Source of the DNA: a virus
Direction: 5' to 3' (one strand)
Virus record (IMG/VR): IMGVR_UViG_3300038825_000144
Coordinates: 1 to 30,157 of that record
Length of the DNA: 30,157 bases
The notes below the pieces were generated by a model. The model ran no database searches. It had not been told where the DNA came from and was given only the letters and a program-made list of their open reading frames with translations. Numbering within the stretch: position 1 is the first letter of the stretch; each line of letters begins with the position of its first letter. Below, one piece after another: positions 4,666-30,157 of the stretch. A program made the translations under genes and the position numbers.

Positions 4666-4692
4666 CAAAATATTAATTTTTAAACGATATAT
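4666..4692 (+). promoter_or_regulatory. Putative late promoter, copy 1 (CAAAAT-N13-CGATATAT)
   Basis: CAAAAT at 4666-4671 and CGATATAT at 4685-4692 are separated by 13 bases; the ATG of the protease gene (4697) starts 12 bases after the C of CGATATAT. The same layout occurs four more times in the window with the same spacing. It lies in the short gap between tape measure and protease genes. Confidence 0.65.
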
Positions 4693-4696
4693 AAAT

Positions 4697-5887
4697 ATGA
4701 AAATAGTAGAACTTATTTTAGATGAAAATGAGGAGCTAAATGGGATTGAAGCAATAAGCATTGTAGAGAATCCTGCAATAGAAGAAGATTTCGTTGCATT
4801 AAAAAGTGATGAAATAAAATTAGCAGAAGTTAGCGAAGAAAAAAGAATCTTAATGGGAGCTTTATTAATCCCTAACAAACCTATATATAGAAGGAGTGGA
4901 GAGGATGAATATTATATATACTTCTCCAAAGATACGGTTTTAAAAGCATCCCAAATGTATTTAATGAAAGGCAACCAAAACAACTCGACATTAGAGCATC
5001 AATATTCTCTAAATGGATTGTCTTTAGTAGAGTCTTGGATAGTAGAAGATACTGTTCACGATAAATCAAGAAAGTACGATATGGAAGTTCCTGTAGGGAC
5101 TTGGATGGGTACTGTAAAAGTAAATAATGAAGATGTTTGGAACGACTATGTAAAAACAGGTAAGGTTAAAGGATTTTCTATAGAAGGCTACTTTGTAGAT
5201 AAAATGGAAAGACCTAAAGACGCTACTATAAACGACTTAGCAGAAATAGAGGAAGAAGAAGCTAAAGAGTTATTATCTACTATTAGAGGAATTATAAAAG
5301 GAGACAAAAGAACTAAGAGTGGAAAGAAGACGATAATGGAATCTTATACAGACTATCCTGATGCAGTTAAGAATAACGCTAAAAAAGGTTTAGAACTTAA
5401 CGAGAAAGTAAACAATAAATGTGCTACACAAGTTGGTAAGATTAGAGCTACTCAACTTGCACAAGGAAAACCAATAAGTAAAGAAACTATAAAGCGTATG
5501 TATTCTTATTTGTCAAGAGCAGAAGAATACTTTGACCCAAGTGATAATTCTAAATGTGGAACTATAAGTTTCTACTTATGGGGAGGATTAGCAGCAAAGA
5601 GATGGAGTGAATCTAAACTAAAAGAATTAGAGTTAGCTTCTATGAAGATAAATGATGATTATGCTATAATAGACGATAGATTAGCATACTCCACAAAAGA
5701 GAAAGCTATAGAAATGGCTAAGGACTTGGGATGTGAAAAATATCACGAACACGAATATGAAGGTAAGATATGGTATATGCCTTGTGAACAACACGAACTT
5801 AAAGCTCCTTGTCAAGCAGGATATGAGCAATATGGAATGAAAAGAAAGAATGGAAGATTAGTACCTAATTGTATACCAATTAAATAA
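4697..5887 (+). CDS. XkdF-like prohead protease with C-terminal extension
   Basis: Residues 45-170 look like the XkdF-type (Peptidase S78_2) capsid-maturation protease: GALLIPNKPIYRR, then TLEHQYS with a candidate catalytic His101, VESWIVED, VPVGTWMGTV, and KGFSIEGYF with candidate Ser161. Such proteases cleave scaffold and capsid N-termini in the procapsid. Gene order (protease, scaffold, capsid) fits. After an acidic helical linker (170-200) comes a second domain of about 100 residues (YPDAVKNNAKKGLELN, then TIKRMYSYLSRAEEY, then LWGGLAAKRW) also known from other Bacteroidota phage structural proteins, and then a Cys-containing C-terminus ending in GRLVPNCIPIK. The role of these extensions is unknown to me. 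The start is fixed by the ATG 12 bases after a CGATATAT element. Confidence 0.8.
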   Translation: MKIVELILDENEELNGIEAISIVENPAIEEDFVALKSDEIKLAEVSEEKRILMGALLIPNKPIYRRSGEDEYYIYFSKDTVLKASQMYLMKGNQNNSTLEHQYSLNGLSLVESWIVEDTVHDKSRKYDMEVPVGTWMGTVKVNNEDVWNDYVKTGKVKGFSIEGYFVDKMERPKDATINDLAEIEEEEAKELLSTIRGIIKGDKRTKSGKKTIMESYTDYPDAVKNNAKKGLELNEKVNNKCATQVGKIRATQLAQGKPISKETIKRMYSYLSRAEEYFDPSDNSKCGTISFYLWGGLAAKRWSESKLKELELASMKINDDYAIIDDRLAYSTKEKAIEMAKDLGCEKYHEHEYEGKIWYMPCEQHELKAPCQAGYEQYGMKRKNGRLVPNCIPIK

Positions 5888-6035: not shown

Positions 6036-6062
6036 CAAAATAATTAACTAAATACGATATAT
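6036..6062 (+). promoter_or_regulatory. Putative late promoter, copy 2 (CAAAAT-N13-CGATATAT)
   Basis: CAAAAT at 6036-6041, 13 bases, CGATATAT at 6055-6062, and the scaffold ATG at 6067, again 12 bases after the C. It would drive scaffold and major capsid genes. Confidence 0.65.
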
Positions 6063-6066
6063 TAAT

Positions 6067-6696
6067 ATGAAACCTATGGAAATGTTAAATCAAATCAAAA
6101 GCGTCTTGGGTGTAGAATTATCTACTGAAGAAAAAGTAGAACTTGCTCAAGCTAAATTAGAAAATGGTACTGTTTTAGAAGCAGAATCATTCGAATCAGG
6201 AAAAGAAGTATTTATCTTAACTGATGACGAGAAAGTAGCTTTACCTATTGGAGAGTACGAAATGGAAGATGGTAAAATCTTAGTAATAGCAGAAGATGGT
6301 ATTATTTCAGAAATCAAAGAAGGTGGAGAAGAAGAAGTTGTGGAAGAAGAAGTAGAAGAAGTAGAACAAGTTGAAGAAGAATTAAAAGAAGAAGACAAAT
6401 ACGCAACTAAACAAGAACTTGCTGAAATCAAATCAATGGTAGAAGAAATCAAAGAATTGATGAAGGAAGGTAAAAAAGAGGAAATGCACAAGGAAGAAGA
6501 ATTGATGTCACAGAAATTGACTGAACTTGCTTGTCAAGAAGATGAAGCTCTAAAAGAAGAATTATCTAAACCAGCTTCTGAACCTATTAAGCATTCTCCT
6601 GAAGCAAAAGAAGAATTAAATAAAGTTGTTTACTCTCAAAAGAGAAACTTAACAACTAAAGATATAGTATATAATAAAATAGCAAATTTCAAATAA
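6067..6696 (+). CDS. Putative scaffolding protein
   Basis: This 209-residue protein is highly acidic, with a run of Glu/Val repeats around residues 89-110 and a long predicted coiled coil (110-160). The N-terminal 85 residues look like a small beta domain (LTDDEKVALPIGEYEMEDGK). It has no Cys-rich or membrane part. Immediately upstream of the major capsid gene, behind the protease gene, an acidic coiled-coil protein is most simply the internal scaffold that the protease removes. The C-terminal basic segment (YSQKRNLTTKDIVYNK) could contact the capsid protein. The function is inferred from context and composition. Confidence 0.75.
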   Translation: MKPMEMLNQIKSVLGVELSTEEKVELAQAKLENGTVLEAESFESGKEVFILTDDEKVALPIGEYEMEDGKILVIAEDGIISEIKEGGEEEVVEEEVEEVEQVEEELKEEDKYATKQELAEIKSMVEEIKELMKEGKKEEMHKEEELMSQKLTELACQEDEALKEELSKPASEPIKHSPEAKEELNKVVYSQKRNLTTKDIVYNKIANFK

Positions 6697-8282: not shown

Positions 8283-8305
8283 TAAATCATTAAGTTAAAA
8301 AATTA

Positions 8306-8332
8306 AGGGGACTATATGTCCTCTTTTTTTTT
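8306..8332 (+). terminator. Intrinsic terminator after tail-tube gene
   Basis: AGGGGAC at 8306-8312 pairs with GTCCTCT at 8318-8324 (one G-T pair) around a TATAT loop, followed by a run of T to 8332. The third CGATATAT element begins only 11 bases downstream, so one unit ends and another starts here. Confidence 0.85.
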
Positions 8333-8342
8333 GCATTTAACA

Positions 8343-8369
8343 CAAAATATAGTTTTTTTTTCGATATAT
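8343..8369 (+). promoter_or_regulatory. Putative late promoter, copy 3 (CAAAAT-N13-CGATATAT)
   Basis: CAAAAT at 8343-8348, 13 bases (mostly T), CGATATAT at 8362-8369, and an ATG at 8374, 12 bases after the C. It directly follows an intrinsic terminator, which strengthens the case for a true promoter feeding the portal operon. Confidence 0.72.
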
Positions 8370-8373
8370 AAGT

Positions 8374-8748
8374 ATGAAGATATTAACTACAAGTAGCTCT
8401 CAACAAACTATTGATATTATTCCAAGACAATTTTTATCAAGCTATAAATTGATAGTAAAAGATGAAGCTGCAAATGAAGAAGTTTTTAACGATGAAGTAA
8501 CTGCAGCAAATTATGATGATTATAGACAGTTACAAGTAACATTTGACCCTGTTTTAAAAGAAGGTCGTTACTATACTATGGAAGTTAGAAATAGATTAGT
8601 AGAAACTATTATCTACTATAAAGACAAAATATTTTGCACAGACCAAACCATAAGTCAAACAAATAATGACTATTATTCTATTAATAATAATGAGTATACT
8701 TTTGATGAAACTTCTGGTTCTCACGATAACGATTACATAATAATATGA
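8374..8748 (+). CDS. Conserved phage structural-region protein, 124 aa
   Basis: The protein appears beta-rich (ITTSSSQQTIDI-like start, then SSYKLIVKDEAANEEV, then EGRYYTMEVRNR) and has a distinctive YKDKIFCTDQ near residue 88-97 followed by an Asn/Tyr-rich tail. I recognise this layout from genes just upstream of portal genes in Bacteroidota siphoviruses, but no function is established to my knowledge. It overlaps the portal start by ATGA, so the two are likely co-translated. A head-tail interface role is a guess from position. Confidence 0.65.
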   Translation: MKILTTSSSQQTIDIIPRQFLSSYKLIVKDEAANEEVFNDEVTAANYDDYRQLQVTFDPVLKEGRYYTMEVRNRLVETIIYYKDKIFCTDQTISQTNNDYYSINNNEYTFDETSGSHDNDYIII

Positions 8749-17684: not shown

Positions 17685-17737
17685 AAAGAATTTTAGATAT
17701 TTTTTATGAATATTGGATAAAACCTTATTGTCCATAA
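17681..17737 (+). CDS. Micro-ORF, 18 aa
   Basis: An ATGA overlap with the preceding basic-protein gene opens an 18-codon frame (MKRILDIFYEYWIKPYCP). It is amphipathic and aromatic. Coupling is the only support; it may equally be non-functional. Confidence 0.35.
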   Translation: MKRILDIFYEYWIKPYCP

Positions 17738-17756
17738 CTTTTTTTTTATATATTTG
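17728..17756 (+). promoter_or_regulatory. Host-type promoter (TTG-N18-TATATTTG)
   Basis: TTG at 17728-17730 and TATATTTG at 17749-17756 are 18 bases apart, close to the Bacteroidota housekeeping consensus TTTG-N19-TAnnTTTG. It lies between the lysis block and the DNA-metabolism block and points at the latter. Confidence 0.6.
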
Positions 17757-19286: not shown

Positions 19287-19622
19287 ATGGAAATTACTGG
19301 TAGAATTAAGAAAATTAATGACATAAAAACATTTGGAGCTAACAACTTTAGAATAAGAAGTATGTGGCTTGTAACTAATGATAAATACCCACAAACAATA
19401 TCTGTAGAGTTTACACAAGATAAAGTAAACCTATTAGACAATTATACAGAAGGTTCTTTTGTTAAGACATCTATAAACCTTAGAGGTAGAGAATGGGAGA
19501 ATCCTAAAACAAATGAAGTAAAAGTATTCAATACTATTGAAGGATGGAAGATAGAAGATGATGTAGAGCAAGTAACTACTGCAGCACAAAGTCCTGATAG
19601 AGATAACGACTTACCATTCTAA
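19287..19622 (+). CDS. DUF3127 protein, SSB-like
   Basis: The 111-residue protein matches the DUF3127 family, common in Bacteroidota and their phages: MEITGRIKKINDIKTFGAN, NDKYPQTISVEFTQDKVNLL, and KTSINLRGREWENPKTNEV. It ends in DRDNDLPF, an acidic tip like the protein-docking tail of bacterial SSB. An OB-fold single-strand-binding role in replication or recombination is the best inference. Neighbours are a second OB-like protein and the helicase. Its start ATG follows a clear A-rich gap, and its end overlaps the next ATG. Confidence 0.82.
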   Translation: MEITGRIKKINDIKTFGANNFRIRSMWLVTNDKYPQTISVEFTQDKVNLLDNYTEGSFVKTSINLRGREWENPKTNEVKVFNTIEGWKIEDDVEQVTTAAQSPDRDNDLPF

Positions 19623-19921
19623 TGACTGCAGAAGAAAGAAAAAAGACCCCTGTCTTTTCAGGGGTTTTAAATTATTTTCCTGATGCTATTTTAGAAGTTG
19701 CAAAAGTTTCTTATATTGGTAATCAACAACACAATCCAAACAAACCATTACATTGGGACAGAAGTAAGTCTGGAGATGAATTAGATGCTTTATGTAGACA
19801 TCTTACAGAAGCTGGTAAGATTGATAGTGATGGTATGAGACATTCAGCTAAGGTAGCTTGGAGAGCTTTAGCTAACTTGCAAAAAGAAATAGAAAAAGAC
19901 AACAACAAAAAGAAAAATTAA
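19622..19921 (+). CDS. dNTP-hydrolase-like domain protein (DUF5664 type)
   Basis: The 99-residue protein contains SGVLNYFPDAILEVAKVSYI, then HWDRSKSGDELDALCRHLTE and a helical end with RHSAKVAWRALANLQ. This follows the small all-alpha domain annotated as the N-terminal part of phage dATP/dGTP diphosphohydrolase (DUF5664). Such enzymes can adjust nucleotide pools or degrade dNTPs during infection. Here only the compact domain is present, so catalytic activity is uncertain. It overlaps the DUF3127 gene by one base and sits just before the helicase. Confidence 0.75.
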   Translation: MTAEERKKTPVFSGVLNYFPDAILEVAKVSYIGNQQHNPNKPLHWDRSKSGDELDALCRHLTEAGKIDSDGMRHSAKVAWRALANLQKEIEKDNNKKKN

Positions 19922-19922
19922 A

Positions 19923-20837
19923 ATGCTTATAAACTTTGATGACCAGATAAATAAACTTCACGACATTCGTTCTGGCAAAATCAAAGAAGGTTTAGGATTA
20001 GGATTTCCAGAAATAGACGAATTTTTTAGGTTTAAACAGGGGAATTTTTTGGTTTGCTTAGGTCACGCAAATGTGGGAAAGACTACTGTGATTCTTTATC
20101 TAATGTTATTGTATTCAATAAAGCATAATATTAGATGGCTTATATTTTCAAGTGAGAATGAAGCTCATAGTATTATTAGAAAACTTATAGAGTTCTTAGC
20201 AGCTAAACCAATTAATAAAATAACAGACGAGGAGTTTAATAAGCATAAGCAATTTGTATTTAATCAGTTCAAGATTATAGATGCCAATGAATTACATACT
20301 TATAAGACTTTATTAGAACTTGCTACAAGCATTAAAAAGGCTTGGAACTATCAAGGATTTCTTATAGACCCTTATAATTCTTTAATGAAAGATAGGGATA
20401 TGCTAAAAGGTATTAATTCTCACGATTACGATTATGAAGCAACTTCTGAGATACGAATATTCTGTAAAACACATAATGTAGCAATATGGCTTAATACACA
20501 CGCAGCTACAGAAGCATTAAGAAAGAAGCACGGAACATCTGATGAATATGCAGGACATCCTATTCCTCCTATGGCAAGTGATGTAGAAGGAGGAGGTAAG
20601 TTTGTAAATAGAAGTGATGAATTTATCTGCATACATAGATACACTCAACACCCAACAGATTGGATGTATAACCATATACATATTAGAAAAGTAAAAGACA
20701 TAGATACTGGAGGAAGACCAACACCAATAGATGAACCTATAAAACTAAAATCAATACTTAATAATGTAGGATTTCAATTAAATGGAAATCACATAATAAC
20801 TCCAGCTTTAACCAAACAAATTAATTTACCATTTTGA
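19923..20837 (+). CDS. DnaB/RecA-type replicative helicase ATPase domain
   Basis: The 304-residue protein has a Walker A loop GHANVGKTT (47-55), a motif-1a-like SSENE (77-81), a Walker B QGFLIDPYNS (145-154) and a likely sensor segment WLNTHAA, as in the C-terminal motor domain of DnaB and gp4-type helicases. No N-terminal DnaB domain or primase is present; the first 30 residues go straight into the motor. It could load on the host replisome or act as a stand-alone motor. It ends in a TTGA overlap with the sigma-like gene, so both are probably co-translated. Confidence 0.85.
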   Translation: MLINFDDQINKLHDIRSGKIKEGLGLGFPEIDEFFRFKQGNFLVCLGHANVGKTTVILYLMLLYSIKHNIRWLIFSSENEAHSIIRKLIEFLAAKPINKITDEEFNKHKQFVFNQFKIIDANELHTYKTLLELATSIKKAWNYQGFLIDPYNSLMKDRDMLKGINSHDYDYEATSEIRIFCKTHNVAIWLNTHAATEALRKKHGTSDEYAGHPIPPMASDVEGGGKFVNRSDEFICIHRYTQHPTDWMYNHIHIRKVKDIDTGGRPTPIDEPIKLKSILNNVGFQLNGNHIITPALTKQINLPF

Positions 20838-21313
20838 AAACACCAGTAGAATTAGCATATGATAAACATAACCAATGGGTAGAGATAGTACAAACCTTTG
20901 GTGGATTAAATAATGAGGAGTGTGAGGATTTGGTACAAACTATGTATATTCTGCTAATAAAGAATACTCAAAAAGGTATTGACTATATGTACAATGATGA
21001 GATAAACTATTATTATGTTTTTAAAATACTCAGAGGATTATATGTAGATTTGATTAGAAAGAAAAGTAAAGTAAAACTGATTAGTTTAGAAAACATAGAA
21101 CCTGTTACAGAAATAGACCACAACAATTATGACGAGGTTTATAATAAGCTCCAGGAGATTTTAAAAGATATGTACTGGTACGATAAAAAAGTATTTGAGA
21201 TAATAGAAGATGGCACTAACATAAGTGAGCTATCAAGAAAAAGTAAGATAAGTTATTACAGCTTATACAATACATATAAGAAAGTAAAACAGAAACTAAA
21301 AGATAATTTATGA
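20834..21313 (+). CDS. Sigma-factor-like protein, 159 aa, TTG start
   Basis: The N-terminal part (LNNEECEDLVQTMYILLIKN at about 25-44, then VFKILRGLYVDLIRKKSKVK) follows sigma-70 region 2, with the basic segment after the helix that normally meets the promoter -10. After a linker, residues 105-159 (DKKVFEIIEDGTNISELSRK, then YYSLYNTYKKVKQKLK) follow the region 4 helix-turn-helix. Two-domain size matches small ECF-type sigma factors. The start is TTG, overlapping the helicase stop (TTGA); no ATG fits this junction. I propose it as the reader of the CGATATAT elements, which is inference. It could instead be a sigma-like HTH regulator. Confidence 0.68.
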   Translation: MKTPVELAYDKHNQWVEIVQTFGGLNNEECEDLVQTMYILLIKNTQKGIDYMYNDEINYYYVFKILRGLYVDLIRKKSKVKLISLENIEPVTEIDHNNYDEVYNKLQEILKDMYWYDKKVFEIIEDGTNISELSRKSKISYYSLYNTYKKVKQKLKDNL

Positions 21314-24548: not shown

Positions 24549-24670
24549 AAGAACTAATAAAAGACATAGACATTATAATAGATGCTATACATATGGGAGA
24601 TACAGAGAATGCCATAGATATGCTTCAGGAGATACAAAGAGAATTAAAAATTAAATTATTATTATTATGA
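24545..24670 (+). CDS. Small 41-aa protein with TTG start
   Basis: A frame opens at TTG 24545, overlapping the methyltransferase stop (TTGA), and closes at a TGA overlapping the next ATG (ATGA). It encodes MKELIKDIDIIIDAIHMGDT..., a helical peptide ending in Leu-rich codons. It exactly fills the gap and uses the same junction style as the sigma-like gene. The function is unknown. Confidence 0.6.
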   Translation: MKELIKDIDIIIDAIHMGDTENAIDMLQEIQRELKIKLLLL

Positions 24671-25089
24671 AAAAGAGAGCTTACGATATAGCAAGACAAA
24701 TAAGTAACCTTGCAGAATTAAATGTATTTGAGAATACAAGAAAAAGAGAATATGTAGAAGCAAGAGGTTTAGTTGCTTTAGTGCTTTATAAATATCTAAA
24801 CATATCACTAACAAATATAGCAAGGTTCTTCCAAGACAATGGAAAGAGTATGCACCACGCAAATGTATTGCATTTGATTAGAAGTTACGATACTTACAAG
24901 TTCTACAACAAGAACCTGGACAAGTGGTTAGATATGGTTATAAATGAAATTGATGATGTGGGAAATGAAAACAAAAGAACTCTCATTAAACATCGTATTA
25001 AGTATCTTACCAATAACGACATAGACGAATTAGCACTCTATACAGAGGATATGTATAATAAAGTTCTACAAAAAGAAGAAAGTATTTAA
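24667..25089 (+). CDS. DnaA domain IV-like DNA-binding protein
   Basis: In this 140-residue protein, YVEARGLVALVLYKYLNISL (about 29-48) followed by TNIARFFQDNGKSMHHANVLHLI follows the HTH and signature helix of the DnaA C-terminal domain, where an A..R..a.yL...l..Sl..Ia..F...H.tVlha pattern binds DnaA boxes. No ATPase part exists. It could help start phage replication at its own origin, or be a packaging or regulatory DNA-binding protein, as it lies directly before the terminase genes. A CGATATAT element starts at its stop codon. Confidence 0.6.
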   Translation: MKKRAYDIARQISNLAELNVFENTRKREYVEARGLVALVLYKYLNISLTNIARFFQDNGKSMHHANVLHLIRSYDTYKFYNKNLDKWLDMVINEIDDVGNENKRTLIKHRIKYLTNNDIDELALYTEDMYNKVLQKEESI

Positions 25090-25114
25090 AAATTAATTTT
25101 ATTTTACGATATAT
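25089..25114 (+). promoter_or_regulatory. Putative late promoter, copy 4 (AAAAT-N13-CGATATAT)
   Basis: AAAAT at 25089-25093, 13 bases, CGATATAT at 25107-25114. At the position of the ATG in the other copies stands ATA (25119), so this copy alone has a leader of about 30 bases to the terminase small-subunit ATG at 25151. Confidence 0.6.
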
Positions 25115-25150
25115 AGATATACAAGATTGATTAATCAATTTTTTTCAATT

Positions 25151-25393
25151 ATGGACAAAAGAAAAAATAATGGAGGAGCAAGACCTAATTCAGGTAGAAA
25201 ACCTAAGCAAGAAGAAGTACAATTAATAGAGAAACTAACTCCCTTAGAACCTTTAGCATTTGAAGCTCTTAAAGATGGATTAGAGAAAAAAGACTTTAAG
25301 TTTGTTCAACTATACTATAATTACTTTGCAGGTAAACCAAAAGAAACAAAGGATATAACTATAAACGAAGATGTACCTTTATTCATTGATTAA
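25151..25393 (+). CDS. Terminase small subunit (putative)
   Basis: From ATG 25151 the 80-residue protein starts MDKRKNNGGARPNSGRKPKQ, a basic N-terminus common in Bacteroidota phage small terminase candidates, then a helical pair (LTPLEPLAFEALKDGLEKKD, KFVQLYYNYFAGKPKE). It is short for the family and the DNA-binding HTH is not obvious. It overlaps the large-subunit start by one base, which is the main support. A TTG at 25127 would add eight residues in frame; the ATG is preferred. Confidence 0.72.
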   Translation: MDKRKNNGGARPNSGRKPKQEEVQLIEKLTPLEPLAFEALKDGLEKKDFKFVQLYYNYFAGKPKETKDITINEDVPLFID

Positions 25394-27118: not shown

Positions 27119-27141
27119 TGATGTTTGTTTTGTTTGGAAAG

Positions 27142-27170
27142 GGGTAGCAGAGATGTTACCCTTTTTTTTT
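27142..27170 (+). terminator. Intrinsic terminator before tail operon
   Basis: GGGTAGCA at 27142-27149 pairs fully (one G-T) with TGTTACCC at 27154-27161 around a GAGA loop, followed by nine T to 27170. It separates the tiny-gene cluster from the tail operon, which begins with its own CGATATAT element 12 bases later. Confidence 0.9.
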
Positions 27171-27182
27171 GTGTATATGTCA

Positions 27183-27208
27183 AAAATGCTTTAGAAATTT
27201 CGATATAT
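27183..27208 (+). promoter_or_regulatory. Putative late promoter, copy 5 (AAAAT-N13-CGATATAT)
   Basis: AAAAT at 27183-27187 (within CAAAAAT), 13 bases, CGATATAT at 27201-27208, ATG at 27213, again 12 bases after the C. It directly follows a strong terminator, so the tail operon needs a promoter here. Confidence 0.72.
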
Positions 27209-27212
27209 ATAT

Positions 27213-27863
27213 ATGAAAGTAGAAATAAACGTGCCTAACGATTTAAAAGAAATCCAACTGCACCAATATCAGAAATTCCTAAAACTCCAAGAAAAGAGCG
27301 TAGATGAGAAGTTCTTAGCTTCTAAGATGATAGAGATATTCTGTGGTTTAAAGCTCACAGATGCACTTAAAATGAAAGTATCAGATGTCTATGCTATTAC
27401 AGGAATACTTGGAGATATGTTTAATCAGAAACCTAAGCTGGTTAAGAAGTTCAAAATGAATGGAGTTGAATATGGCTTCATACCAGACTTAGACCAAATG
27501 AGCTTAGGAGAATACATTGACCTGGATAGTTATTTAGGAGATTGGGAGAATATACATAGAGCAATGAATGTTCTGTATAGACCTATTAAACATAAATACG
27601 CAGAAAAATATAACATACAAGATTACAGTATAGACCATCCAGAGAAGATGCAGAATATGCCAATGGATGCAGTATTAAGTTCTGTGCTTTTTTTTTATCA
27701 TTTAGGAATCGACTTGTCGAAAGCTATGATGAATTATTTGGAGGACAAACAGGAAACGAATTTAGTGCAATATCTCAATTCGGAAGCAAATGGGGATGGT
27801 ATCAATCAATTTACGGACTCGCTCAAGGAGATATTAGACGATTTGAAGATATCACTAAGTTAA
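27213..27863 (+). CDS. Tail assembly chaperone, zero-frame product (gpG-like)
   Basis: The zero frame encodes 216 residues. The first 160 (VEINVPNDLKEIQLHQYQKF, then SKMIEIFCGLKLTDALKMKV, then GEYIDLDSYLGDWENIHRAM, then VLYRPIKHKYAEKYN) follow the N-terminal domain of Bacteroidota phage tail assembly chaperones, which hold the tape measure during tail building. After the T9 run at 27688-27696 the zero frame uses codons rare elsewhere here (TCG, ACG, GGG), as expected if it is not the main coding frame. It is the first gene after copy 5 of the late element. Confidence 0.75.
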   Translation: MKVEINVPNDLKEIQLHQYQKFLKLQEKSVDEKFLASKMIEIFCGLKLTDALKMKVSDVYAITGILGDMFNQKPKLVKKFKMNGVEYGFIPDLDQMSLGEYIDLDSYLGDWENIHRAMNVLYRPIKHKYAEKYNIQDYSIDHPEKMQNMPMDAVLSSVLFFYHLGIDLSKAMMNYLEDKQETNLVQYLNSEANGDGINQFTDSLKEILDDLKISLS

Positions 27864-28928: not shown

Positions 28929-30157
28929 GTACAATAATAAATGCAAGAAGTCCATATTATATAAAAGTAGAACCTGCTTCAGGAACGCTTAGTTCAGCTT
29001 CAATGGAGCTGTTTATATATTCAGGAACTTTTACAACAGACAAACCTGGAACAGCACAGTATACTATAAGCAAAGATATTATAGGAACTAACAACTATGT
29101 GATATACGAAATCACAGAATTAATTAGAGATTATCTAAATACAGAGTATGCAAGTTTTGCTACAGATGGAGTATGGGTTGAAGCAGATATCACATTAACT
29201 AAAACAGTAGGAAGTGAAACTCAAAACTTAGATTACCTTTCTTTTGATGGTTATGGATATTTCGAGGATGGAGTAAATCCAAGAACTTTAATAGACCCAG
29301 TAAACACTTTAGTAGATTCAACAACTACAGGTACGACTACAGCTTATAAACTAATAGATAGTACACAAACATTCTTAACAAGTGTAGCAATAGGAGATAC
29401 AGTATACAACGATACAGATACAACAGAAACAACAATCTCAGCTATAGATAGTGATACTCAACTTACATTAAAGAATGATATAATGACAACAGGAGAGGAC
29501 TACAGAATAATAGGAACTCCTAACTATACTCCTCAATATCTGCAATCAAATACTAAGATATATTTTAAACAAGGTACTGATATAGTATTTCCTGTATTTG
29601 CAGAAGTAGAACCATTGATAGAATTTACAAGTGGAGGAGGAGCTGATGTGTATTGGGAACAAGTAGAGGATTTTTGGAATTTATATGATGTTAGTTGGGG
29701 TAATGTTCTAAATGACATTCAAGTAAATGACTCTACAGACTCAACACAAAAGATAGTCTATATTAGAGTGACTCCTACAGATACATTAATAACAGGAGAT
29801 ACAATTACTATAACAAGCTCAGTAGGTACTTCACAAGTAACAACACTTACGCTTGAAGCAGTATGTGAACCTAAGTATCAGGAACTACAAGTTATATTTT
29901 ATAATAAGTTTGGAGCATTACAGATAATGCCATTTTATAAAAAGTCAATAGATAGCATAAACACCAATTCAGATAGTTATAAAAGAAACTTAATGGAGTT
30001 TGCTACTGACCCTACTTATAACACAGAGAAACATCAAATAAGACAGTTTCACGTTACAGGAAAAGAATCTATAACAATGAACACAGGCTTCATACAAGAG
30101 AGTTTTAACGAGGTTATAAAACAAATGATGCTAAGTGAACAAGTATGGGTAGATAAC
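28925..30157 (+). CDS. Tail structural protein, 5' part (3' end cut by window edge)
   Basis: An ATG overlapping the previous stop (ATGA) opens a frame that remains open to the window edge, 411 codons. Residues 1-120 form a beta-rich domain (ARSPYYIKVEPASGTLSSAS-like), and residues 140-180 contain KLIDSTQTFLTSVAIGDTVY and TETTISAIDSDTQLTLK, a repeat-like unit common in phage structural proteins. The last 242 residues correspond to the gene at the left edge, with nine replacements counted from its ATG at 51. Function as for the left copy. Confidence 0.85.
   Translation, partial: MSTIINARSPYYIKVEPASGTLSSASMELFIYSGTFTTDKPGTAQYTISKDIIGTNNYVIYEITELIRDYLNTEYASFATDGVWVEADITLTKTVGSETQNLDYLSFDGYGYFEDGVNPRTLIDPVNTLVDSTTTGTTTAYKLIDSTQTFLTSVAIGDTVYNDTDTTETTISAIDSDTQLTLKNDIMTTGEDYRIIGTPNYTPQYLQSNTKIYFKQGTDIVFPVFAEVEPLIEFTSGGGADVYWEQVEDFWNLYDVSWGNVLNDIQVNDSTDSTQKIVYIRVTPTDTLITGDTITITSSVGTSQVTTLTLEAVCEPKYQELQVIFYNKFGALQIMPFYKKSIDSINTNSDSYKRNLMEFATDPTYNTEKHQIRQFHVTGKESITMNTGFIQESFNEVIKQMMLSEQVWVDN
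29433..30157. repeat. Right copy of divergent terminal repeat
   Basis: This is the match to bases 1-725, with about 40 mismatches and no gaps. Most substitutions are silent; nine change the protein. It closes the genome map. Confidence 0.9.

Follow-up and report, generated by a model that had tools for sequence, protein, structure and literature searches.

The window, which is the whole 30,157-nucleotide stretch of viral DNA analysed here, carries an open reading frame for a small sigma-like protein in its replication block (Table 1). The TTG start codon of this frame overlaps the stop codon of the helicase gene before it. Five copies of a bipartite sequence element lie elsewhere in the window, and the genes 3' of them are late by position and family (protease, scaffold, the genes before the portal and terminase genes, and the gene at 27213). 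Two other proteins of the replication block are recognizable by sequence. Positions 19287-19622 encode a DUF3127 protein (E 2e-22), whose DUF3127 counterpart in the Nonlabens phage P12024S carries the annotation 'single-strand DNA binding protein', and positions 19622-19921 encode a protein like the N-terminal part of a dATP/dGTP diphosphohydrolase (E 3e-11).

Table 1. The sigma-factor gene, the adjoining helicase gene and the predicted late promoters of the window.
Feature	Positions	Strand	Description
DnaB-like/primase-helicase gene	19923..20837	+	Directly 5' of the sigma gene, overlapping it; replication-block marker
Sigma-factor ORF	20834..21313	+	159 aa, TTG start; sigma2, linker and sigma4
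Late promoter 1	4666..4697	+	CAAAAT 4666-4671, N13, CGATATAT 4685-4692; predicted +1 at A of ATG 4697; prohead protease-like gene
Late promoter 2	6036..6067	+	CAAAAT, N13, CGATATAT 6055-6062; predicted +1 at ATG 6067; scaffold-like gene, then capsid gene 6718
Late promoter 3	8343..8374	+	CAAAAT, N13, CGATATAT 8362-8369; predicted +1 at ATG 8374; gene before portal
Late promoter 4	25089..25119	+	AAAAT 25089-25093, N13, CGATATAT 25107-25114; predicted +1 at A25119; gene before large terminase
Late promoter 5	27183..27213	+	AAAAT, N13, CGATATAT 27201-27208; predicted +1 at ATG 27213; late gene of unknown function

Taken alone, the sequence in the window is weak evidence for a sigma factor. Pfam Sigma70_r2 matches the protein at E 0.026 (14.7 bits; cut-off 24), PHROG_1740, 'RNA polymerase sigma factor', at E 0.0015, and the NCBIfam model TIGR02937 (sigma70-ECF) matches residues 28-159 at E 4.5e-7 (29.6 bits; cut-off 42.9). 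A sequence search of solved structures returned only weak matches to Mtb SigE (E 0.014), and tblastn against cultured phages returned nothing relevant. It is the family that makes the identity firm. One scan of viral contigs yielded 228 relatives, and a profile recovers at least 536. TIGR02937 matches at E <= 0.01 in 41 of the 46 aligned members, with a best value of 1.2e-11, and the region 2.2-type residues D32, Q35 and Y38 are invariant or nearly so across the family. At the sensitivity used, no relative was found in cellular genomes or as a prophage copy among 84,980 species, each represented by one genome. Because the sequence is divergent, the protein is classed by its fold and not by a curated score.

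The fold was predicted with AlphaFold from 46 sequences (pLDDT 87.3). The model contains two helical domains, formed by helices at residues 4-79 and 99-158, which correspond to sigma2 (about residues 4-81) and sigma4 (about 99-159, with the recognition helix at about 139-150). A low-confidence or disordered linker at about residues 80-98 joins them. Sigma factors were the top matches in both structure comparisons, and the leading Foldseek matches were ECF sigma factors. Residues 1-81 superpose at 2.5 A on Bartonella RpoE (76 residues); residues 97-159 do so at 1.6 A on region 4 of E. coli sigmaE in complex with -35 DNA (63 residues). The rmsd over the whole chain is high, as expected if the linker leaves both domains free. 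The architecture is that of the ECF class (group 4), with only sigma2 and sigma4, a linker between them and a length of 159 aa in a class of roughly 160-200 aa. Judged by its predicted fold, the product of this frame is a two-domain ECF-type sigma factor. The earlier note had described a sigma-like protein of ECF size with regions 2 and 4 and had suggested a structural comparison with those regions; the two-domain model, the superpositions and the breadth of the TIGR02937 matches confirm that description on both counts.

The element before the late genes is equally distinct. CGATATAT occurs five times on the plus strand, where 0.58 occurrences are expected for both strands together. The longer pattern AAAA-N14-CGATATAT-N3-TAT begins at 4667, 6037, 8344, 25089 and 27183, always on the plus strand and never on the minus strand, and the whole pattern was absent from 200 dinucleotide-preserving shuffles. 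All five sites have the form AAAAT-N13-CGATATAT, which also occurs in relatives and matches an ECF-style bipartite promoter with fixed spacing and a CG-containing -10. No site lies between 8.4 and 25.1 kb, and the sites precede structural and packaging genes, not early genes. When enriched upstream 8-mers were sought with no motif supplied, CGATATAT came out on top for the window and for most of its near relatives, CGTTATAT ranked first in many members of a second group, and CGTTAATA was among the top words in phage P12024S. Across the 41 contigs compared, 126 element sites fall on the coding strand and one on the opposite strand. A chance motif is ruled out by the shuffles, the strand bias and a reversed-pattern control. 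The late element CAAAAT...CGATATAT that the earlier note had pointed out is thus real.

The position of the element relative to the genes suggests where transcription starts. At four of the five sites in the window, the following gene has its ATG exactly 12 bases downstream of the C of CGATATAT, and in the window and its relatives the -10 stands exactly 12 bases before the ATG at most sites. The T11-A12 step that follows the element is invariant both at late-gene sites and at 13 terminase-type sites. The latter have TA, not TG, after this step, and in the window about 32 further bases precede the gene start. In the clade with CGTTATAT, the boxes keep their spacing but the ATG lies at varying distances, from about 10 to about 16. 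The invariance of T11-A12, together with the drifting ATG distance, favours a promoter over a translation signal; the invariance at 12 bases places the predicted start at the A of the AUG, which would make most late mRNAs leaderless. In phiEco32, the motif of the phage sigma factor, tAATGTATAtA, lies 6-8 nt upstream of the start (PMC4281155), and by likeness to this spacing a start at or beside the AUG is plausible. The late messages thus probably begin at the AUG itself. Leaderless mRNAs make up 5.5% of the mapped mRNAs of Flavobacterium psychrophilum (PMC9723704), and about 3.7% of 5' UTRs in Bacteroides thetaiotaomicron are shorter than 10 nt (PMC7366714). Leaderless late mRNAs, if true, would be unusual next to these figures.

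Late promoter 4 has no ATG at its predicted +1. A predicted leader of 32 nt separates it from the ATG at 25151, which is probably the start of the pre-terminase gene, not the TTG at 25127. This predicted leader (25119-25150) contains a perfect palindrome, ATTGATTAATCAAT (25126-25139), and a T run. Sequences related to the palindrome recur at the pre-terminase place in several other sigma lineages, and ATTGATTAATCAAT may serve as an operator, belong to a packaging site or form a hairpin.

Many of the contigs compared are fragments. All 31 contigs selected by their sigma gene hold the element (up to 2 mismatches) in 1-6 copies on one strand only, and a reversed control pattern was found in none of them. 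Among 29 contigs selected by the motif, 21 are without a sigma match, and these were considered as relatives with the motif but without the gene. Those related to the window are fragments that are also without the helicase gene. Those unrelated to it (G035/L092, G048/L143, L086, L171 and L183) have one match each, as expected by chance in a large collection. The sigma gene is present in every motif contig that holds the replication-block helicase. Contigs with the sigma gene but without CG.TATAT (G086, G076, G098, G087, G084, G064, G083, G078, G072 and P12024S) were likewise set aside as counter-examples, since they have their own variants at orthologous late-gene starts. The earlier note had paired the sigma protein with the late element and had proposed that gene and motif be compared for joint presence or absence. 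That comparison turned up no related helicase-holding motif contig without the sigma gene, and the pairing is supported both by this co-occurrence and by the covariation of the -10 described below.

The extent of two contigs deserves a remark. The ends of the window, 1-725 and 29433-30157, share 725 bp with 685 identical positions (94.5%), so the repeat is not exact; the contig probably covers a single genome unit (about 29.4 kb) whose ends come from two strains, or else contains a near-duplicated gene start. The contig G011 (L214, L215; 38,506 bp) has its capsid and portal genes twice, about 33 kb apart, and seems to be longer than one genome unit. It also mixes promoters of the CGTTATAT and CGCTATAT types, with two of CGCTATAT.

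At orthologous late genes, the first bases of the -10 differ with the sigma lineage, being CGA, CGT/CGC, CTA or TTA, and the -10 is CGTTAATA in P12024S. Contigs carry either CGATATAT or CGTTATAT (one also CGCTATAT), and the CGA and CGT classes are never mixed. Other variants occupy the same register. For example, TTATATAT is found at 5, 4 and 2 coding-strand sites in G086, G076 and G098, respectively, and CTATATAT at 3 in G087, with none on the opposite strand in any of the four. In P12024S, CGTTAATA forms part of CAAA-N-CGTTA...ATG sites before genes, 6 on the coding strand and 0 on the opposite strand. The most distant contigs (G084, G064 and G083/G078/G072) have different boxes at the same gene starts, which are weaker and were partly read by eye.

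Among the 31 contigs with both genes, the sigma tree accounts for promoter class with 7 changes, the fewest that 8 classes allow; the capsid tree needs 10, and shuffled labels about 16. The capsid data reject a single CGATATAT clade (p-AU 0.0003). Individual genomes illustrate the same pattern. G011 and G014 have capsids 86-88% identical to that of the window, sigma proteins only 52-53% identical and CGT/CGC promoters; in G050, G091 and G096, by contrast, CGA promoters go with capsids of 62% identity. The tree counts and the rejection by the capsid data indicate that the promoter of the capsid operon goes with the sigma protein and not with the capsid gene that follows the promoter. The sigma protein and the promoter sequence have thus changed together across lineages, and this covariation suggests that the sigma protein reads AAAAT-N13-CGATATAT. 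The capsid gene was the sole contrast gene in this comparison, and covariation alone does not single out the sigma gene because other genes of the replication block are inherited with it.

Conservation within the two domains points to candidate residues for promoter reading. The recognition helix of sigma4 (139-150) is 75-100% identical to that of the window where the -35 is AAAAT and 25-50% identical in lineages with another -35. For helix 59-79 of sigma2, identity is 76-95% among members of the CGA clade and 48-67% for the CGT clade. Residues 68 (G versus S/T) and 74 (I/L/V versus K) are among those that separate the two clades; they are candidates only, because the separation rests on one tree change. 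We lean, if only slightly, towards a broader reading in which the phages form a natural series of matched sigma-promoter pairs. The first three -10 bases (CGA, CGT, CGC, CTA or TTA) would be determined by a small number of sigma2 residues, 68 and 74 being examples, and sigma4 would keep the A-rich -35. The promoters would also be joined directly to the AUG, making almost every late mRNA leaderless in hosts with few such mRNAs.

As a whole explanation of these observations, a phage ECF-type sigma factor that redirects the host core RNA polymerase to about five late promoters is very likely. The protein would be made early from the replication block and bind the host core enzyme. It would guide the enzyme to about five promoters of the phage, each built as (C)AAAAT-N13-CGATATAT, with sigma4 reading the -35 and sigma2 reading the -10. 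The late genes for the head and for packaging, and probably those for the tail, would be transcribed from these promoters. The most likely start of transcription is the A of the start codon, 12 bases beyond the first base of CGATATAT; the pre-terminase promoter would give a leader of about 32 nt. The position of the genes suggests the early-to-late timing. The host-type promoters that the earlier note had placed in the replication block were not established: E. coli-type matches are below the level of shuffled sequence, and Bacteroidetes-type matches are no rarer on the other strand. A Bacteroidetes-type match, TTG-N18-TATATTTG, heads the replication block at 17728-17756, and such matches are no more frequent than chance. 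No anti-sigma gene was found among the small window proteins scanned.

Other readings of the element place its recognition elsewhere. Another co-inherited phage regulator could read it together with a host sigma factor, in which case the frame would still encode a sigma factor. One such regulator is a DnaA-like helix-turn-helix protein of 140 aa (24667-25089), which is encoded just before the terminase promoter, matches Bac_DnaA_C at E 2e-5 and has homologues in many relatives. However, BLAST detects no DnaA-like homologue in G011 or G019, which both have the element; moreover, the element has the two boxes and the spacing of a sigma promoter, and the -10 class matches the sigma tree exactly. 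Recognition by such a regulator is accordingly very unlikely, and the DnaA-like protein is in its own right a possible replication or regulatory protein. The element might instead be served by a host sigma factor, with the phage sigma put to another use such as reprogramming host genes. Flavobacteria do possess ECF sigma factors of their own, but it is the phage sigma, and not the adjacent capsid gene, that the -10 follows as it changes, and the element comes with the sigma gene in all contigs that could be tested, which makes a host-sigma promoter highly improbable.

A further reading treats CGATATAT-N3-TATG as a signal for the initiation of translation and not as a promoter. The exact 12-base distance to the ATG at most sites would fit such a signal, as would the absence of Shine-Dalgarno sequences in flavobacteria (PMC9723704). 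Several features argue against it. An AAAAT box stands at fixed spacing upstream of CGATATAT. The pre-terminase element keeps AAAAT, CGATATAT and TA but has ATA, with the ATG farther downstream, and in the CGTTATAT clade it is the box spacing, not the distance to the ATG, that stays constant. In addition, terminator-like hairpins lie just 5' of late promoter 3 (8305-8325) and late promoter 5 (27136-27167). A translation signal is therefore extremely unlikely, and promoters read by the phage sigma factor remain the preferred explanation.

The only cultured relatives found are the Nonlabens phages P12024S and P12024L, with capsids 29% and portals 37% identical to those of the window; P12024S was reached through these capsid and portal comparisons. 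A flavobacterial host is suggested for the window phage. The P12024S protein gp33 (YP_006560373), annotated 'containing Sigma-70 region 2', is a sigma homologue with 27% identity. As in the window, its gene lies between replication and terminase genes and the genome has CAAA-type sites ahead of ATG codons, whereas the -10 itself differs. No promoter role for gp33 was described in the papers searched. Likewise, no paper on this promoter system was found in the open literature, a search whose coverage left out most subscription journals.

Phage sigma factors that recruit the host core polymerase to late or middle promoters include T4 gp55 and SPO1 gp28. T4 gp55 acts with the sliding clamp and gp33, and its promoters are not known to have a -35 element. 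Set beside these two proteins by description only, the window protein is likewise a phage sigma that would use the host core. A closer parallel is found in phiEco32 (gp36), SU10 and 7-11, in which an ECF-type phage sigma drives middle and late genes from a few conserved promoters (PMC4281155, PMC4331800). That group differs in having an inhibitor of the host sigma70 polymerase and middle promoters, and SU10, a close relative of phiEco32, has a genome of 77 kb, whereas the window phage combines a 159-aa sigma with a genome of about 30 kb and a bipartite element fused to the start codon. Late promoters of phiKZ are also marked by TATG at the start site (PMC5312081), but they are read by a phage multisubunit RNA polymerase and not by a sigma factor with the host core. 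Cellular ECF sigma factors (sigmaE, SigH, SigL, RpoE and those of flavobacteria) share the sigma2-linker-sigma4 fold at about 10-20% identity in structural alignments. The CG core of the -10 is shared with the flavobacterial CGT box (PMC9723704); the A-rich -35 of the window, in contrast, is unlike that of cellular ECF sigma factors. Phage ECF sigma factors with their own promoters are already known; the present case stands apart by its size, by its host group, by a bipartite element that is fused to the start codon and by variants that match across lineages.

Most likely, the tiny sigma factor of a small marine phage family redirects the host RNA polymerase to the phage's own late promoters. 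For a common and little-studied group of marine phages, this would amount to a transcription switch operated by a single protein of 159 aa. The matched variants of sigma factor and promoter would also be a ready resource for studying -10 recognition by ECF sigma factors.
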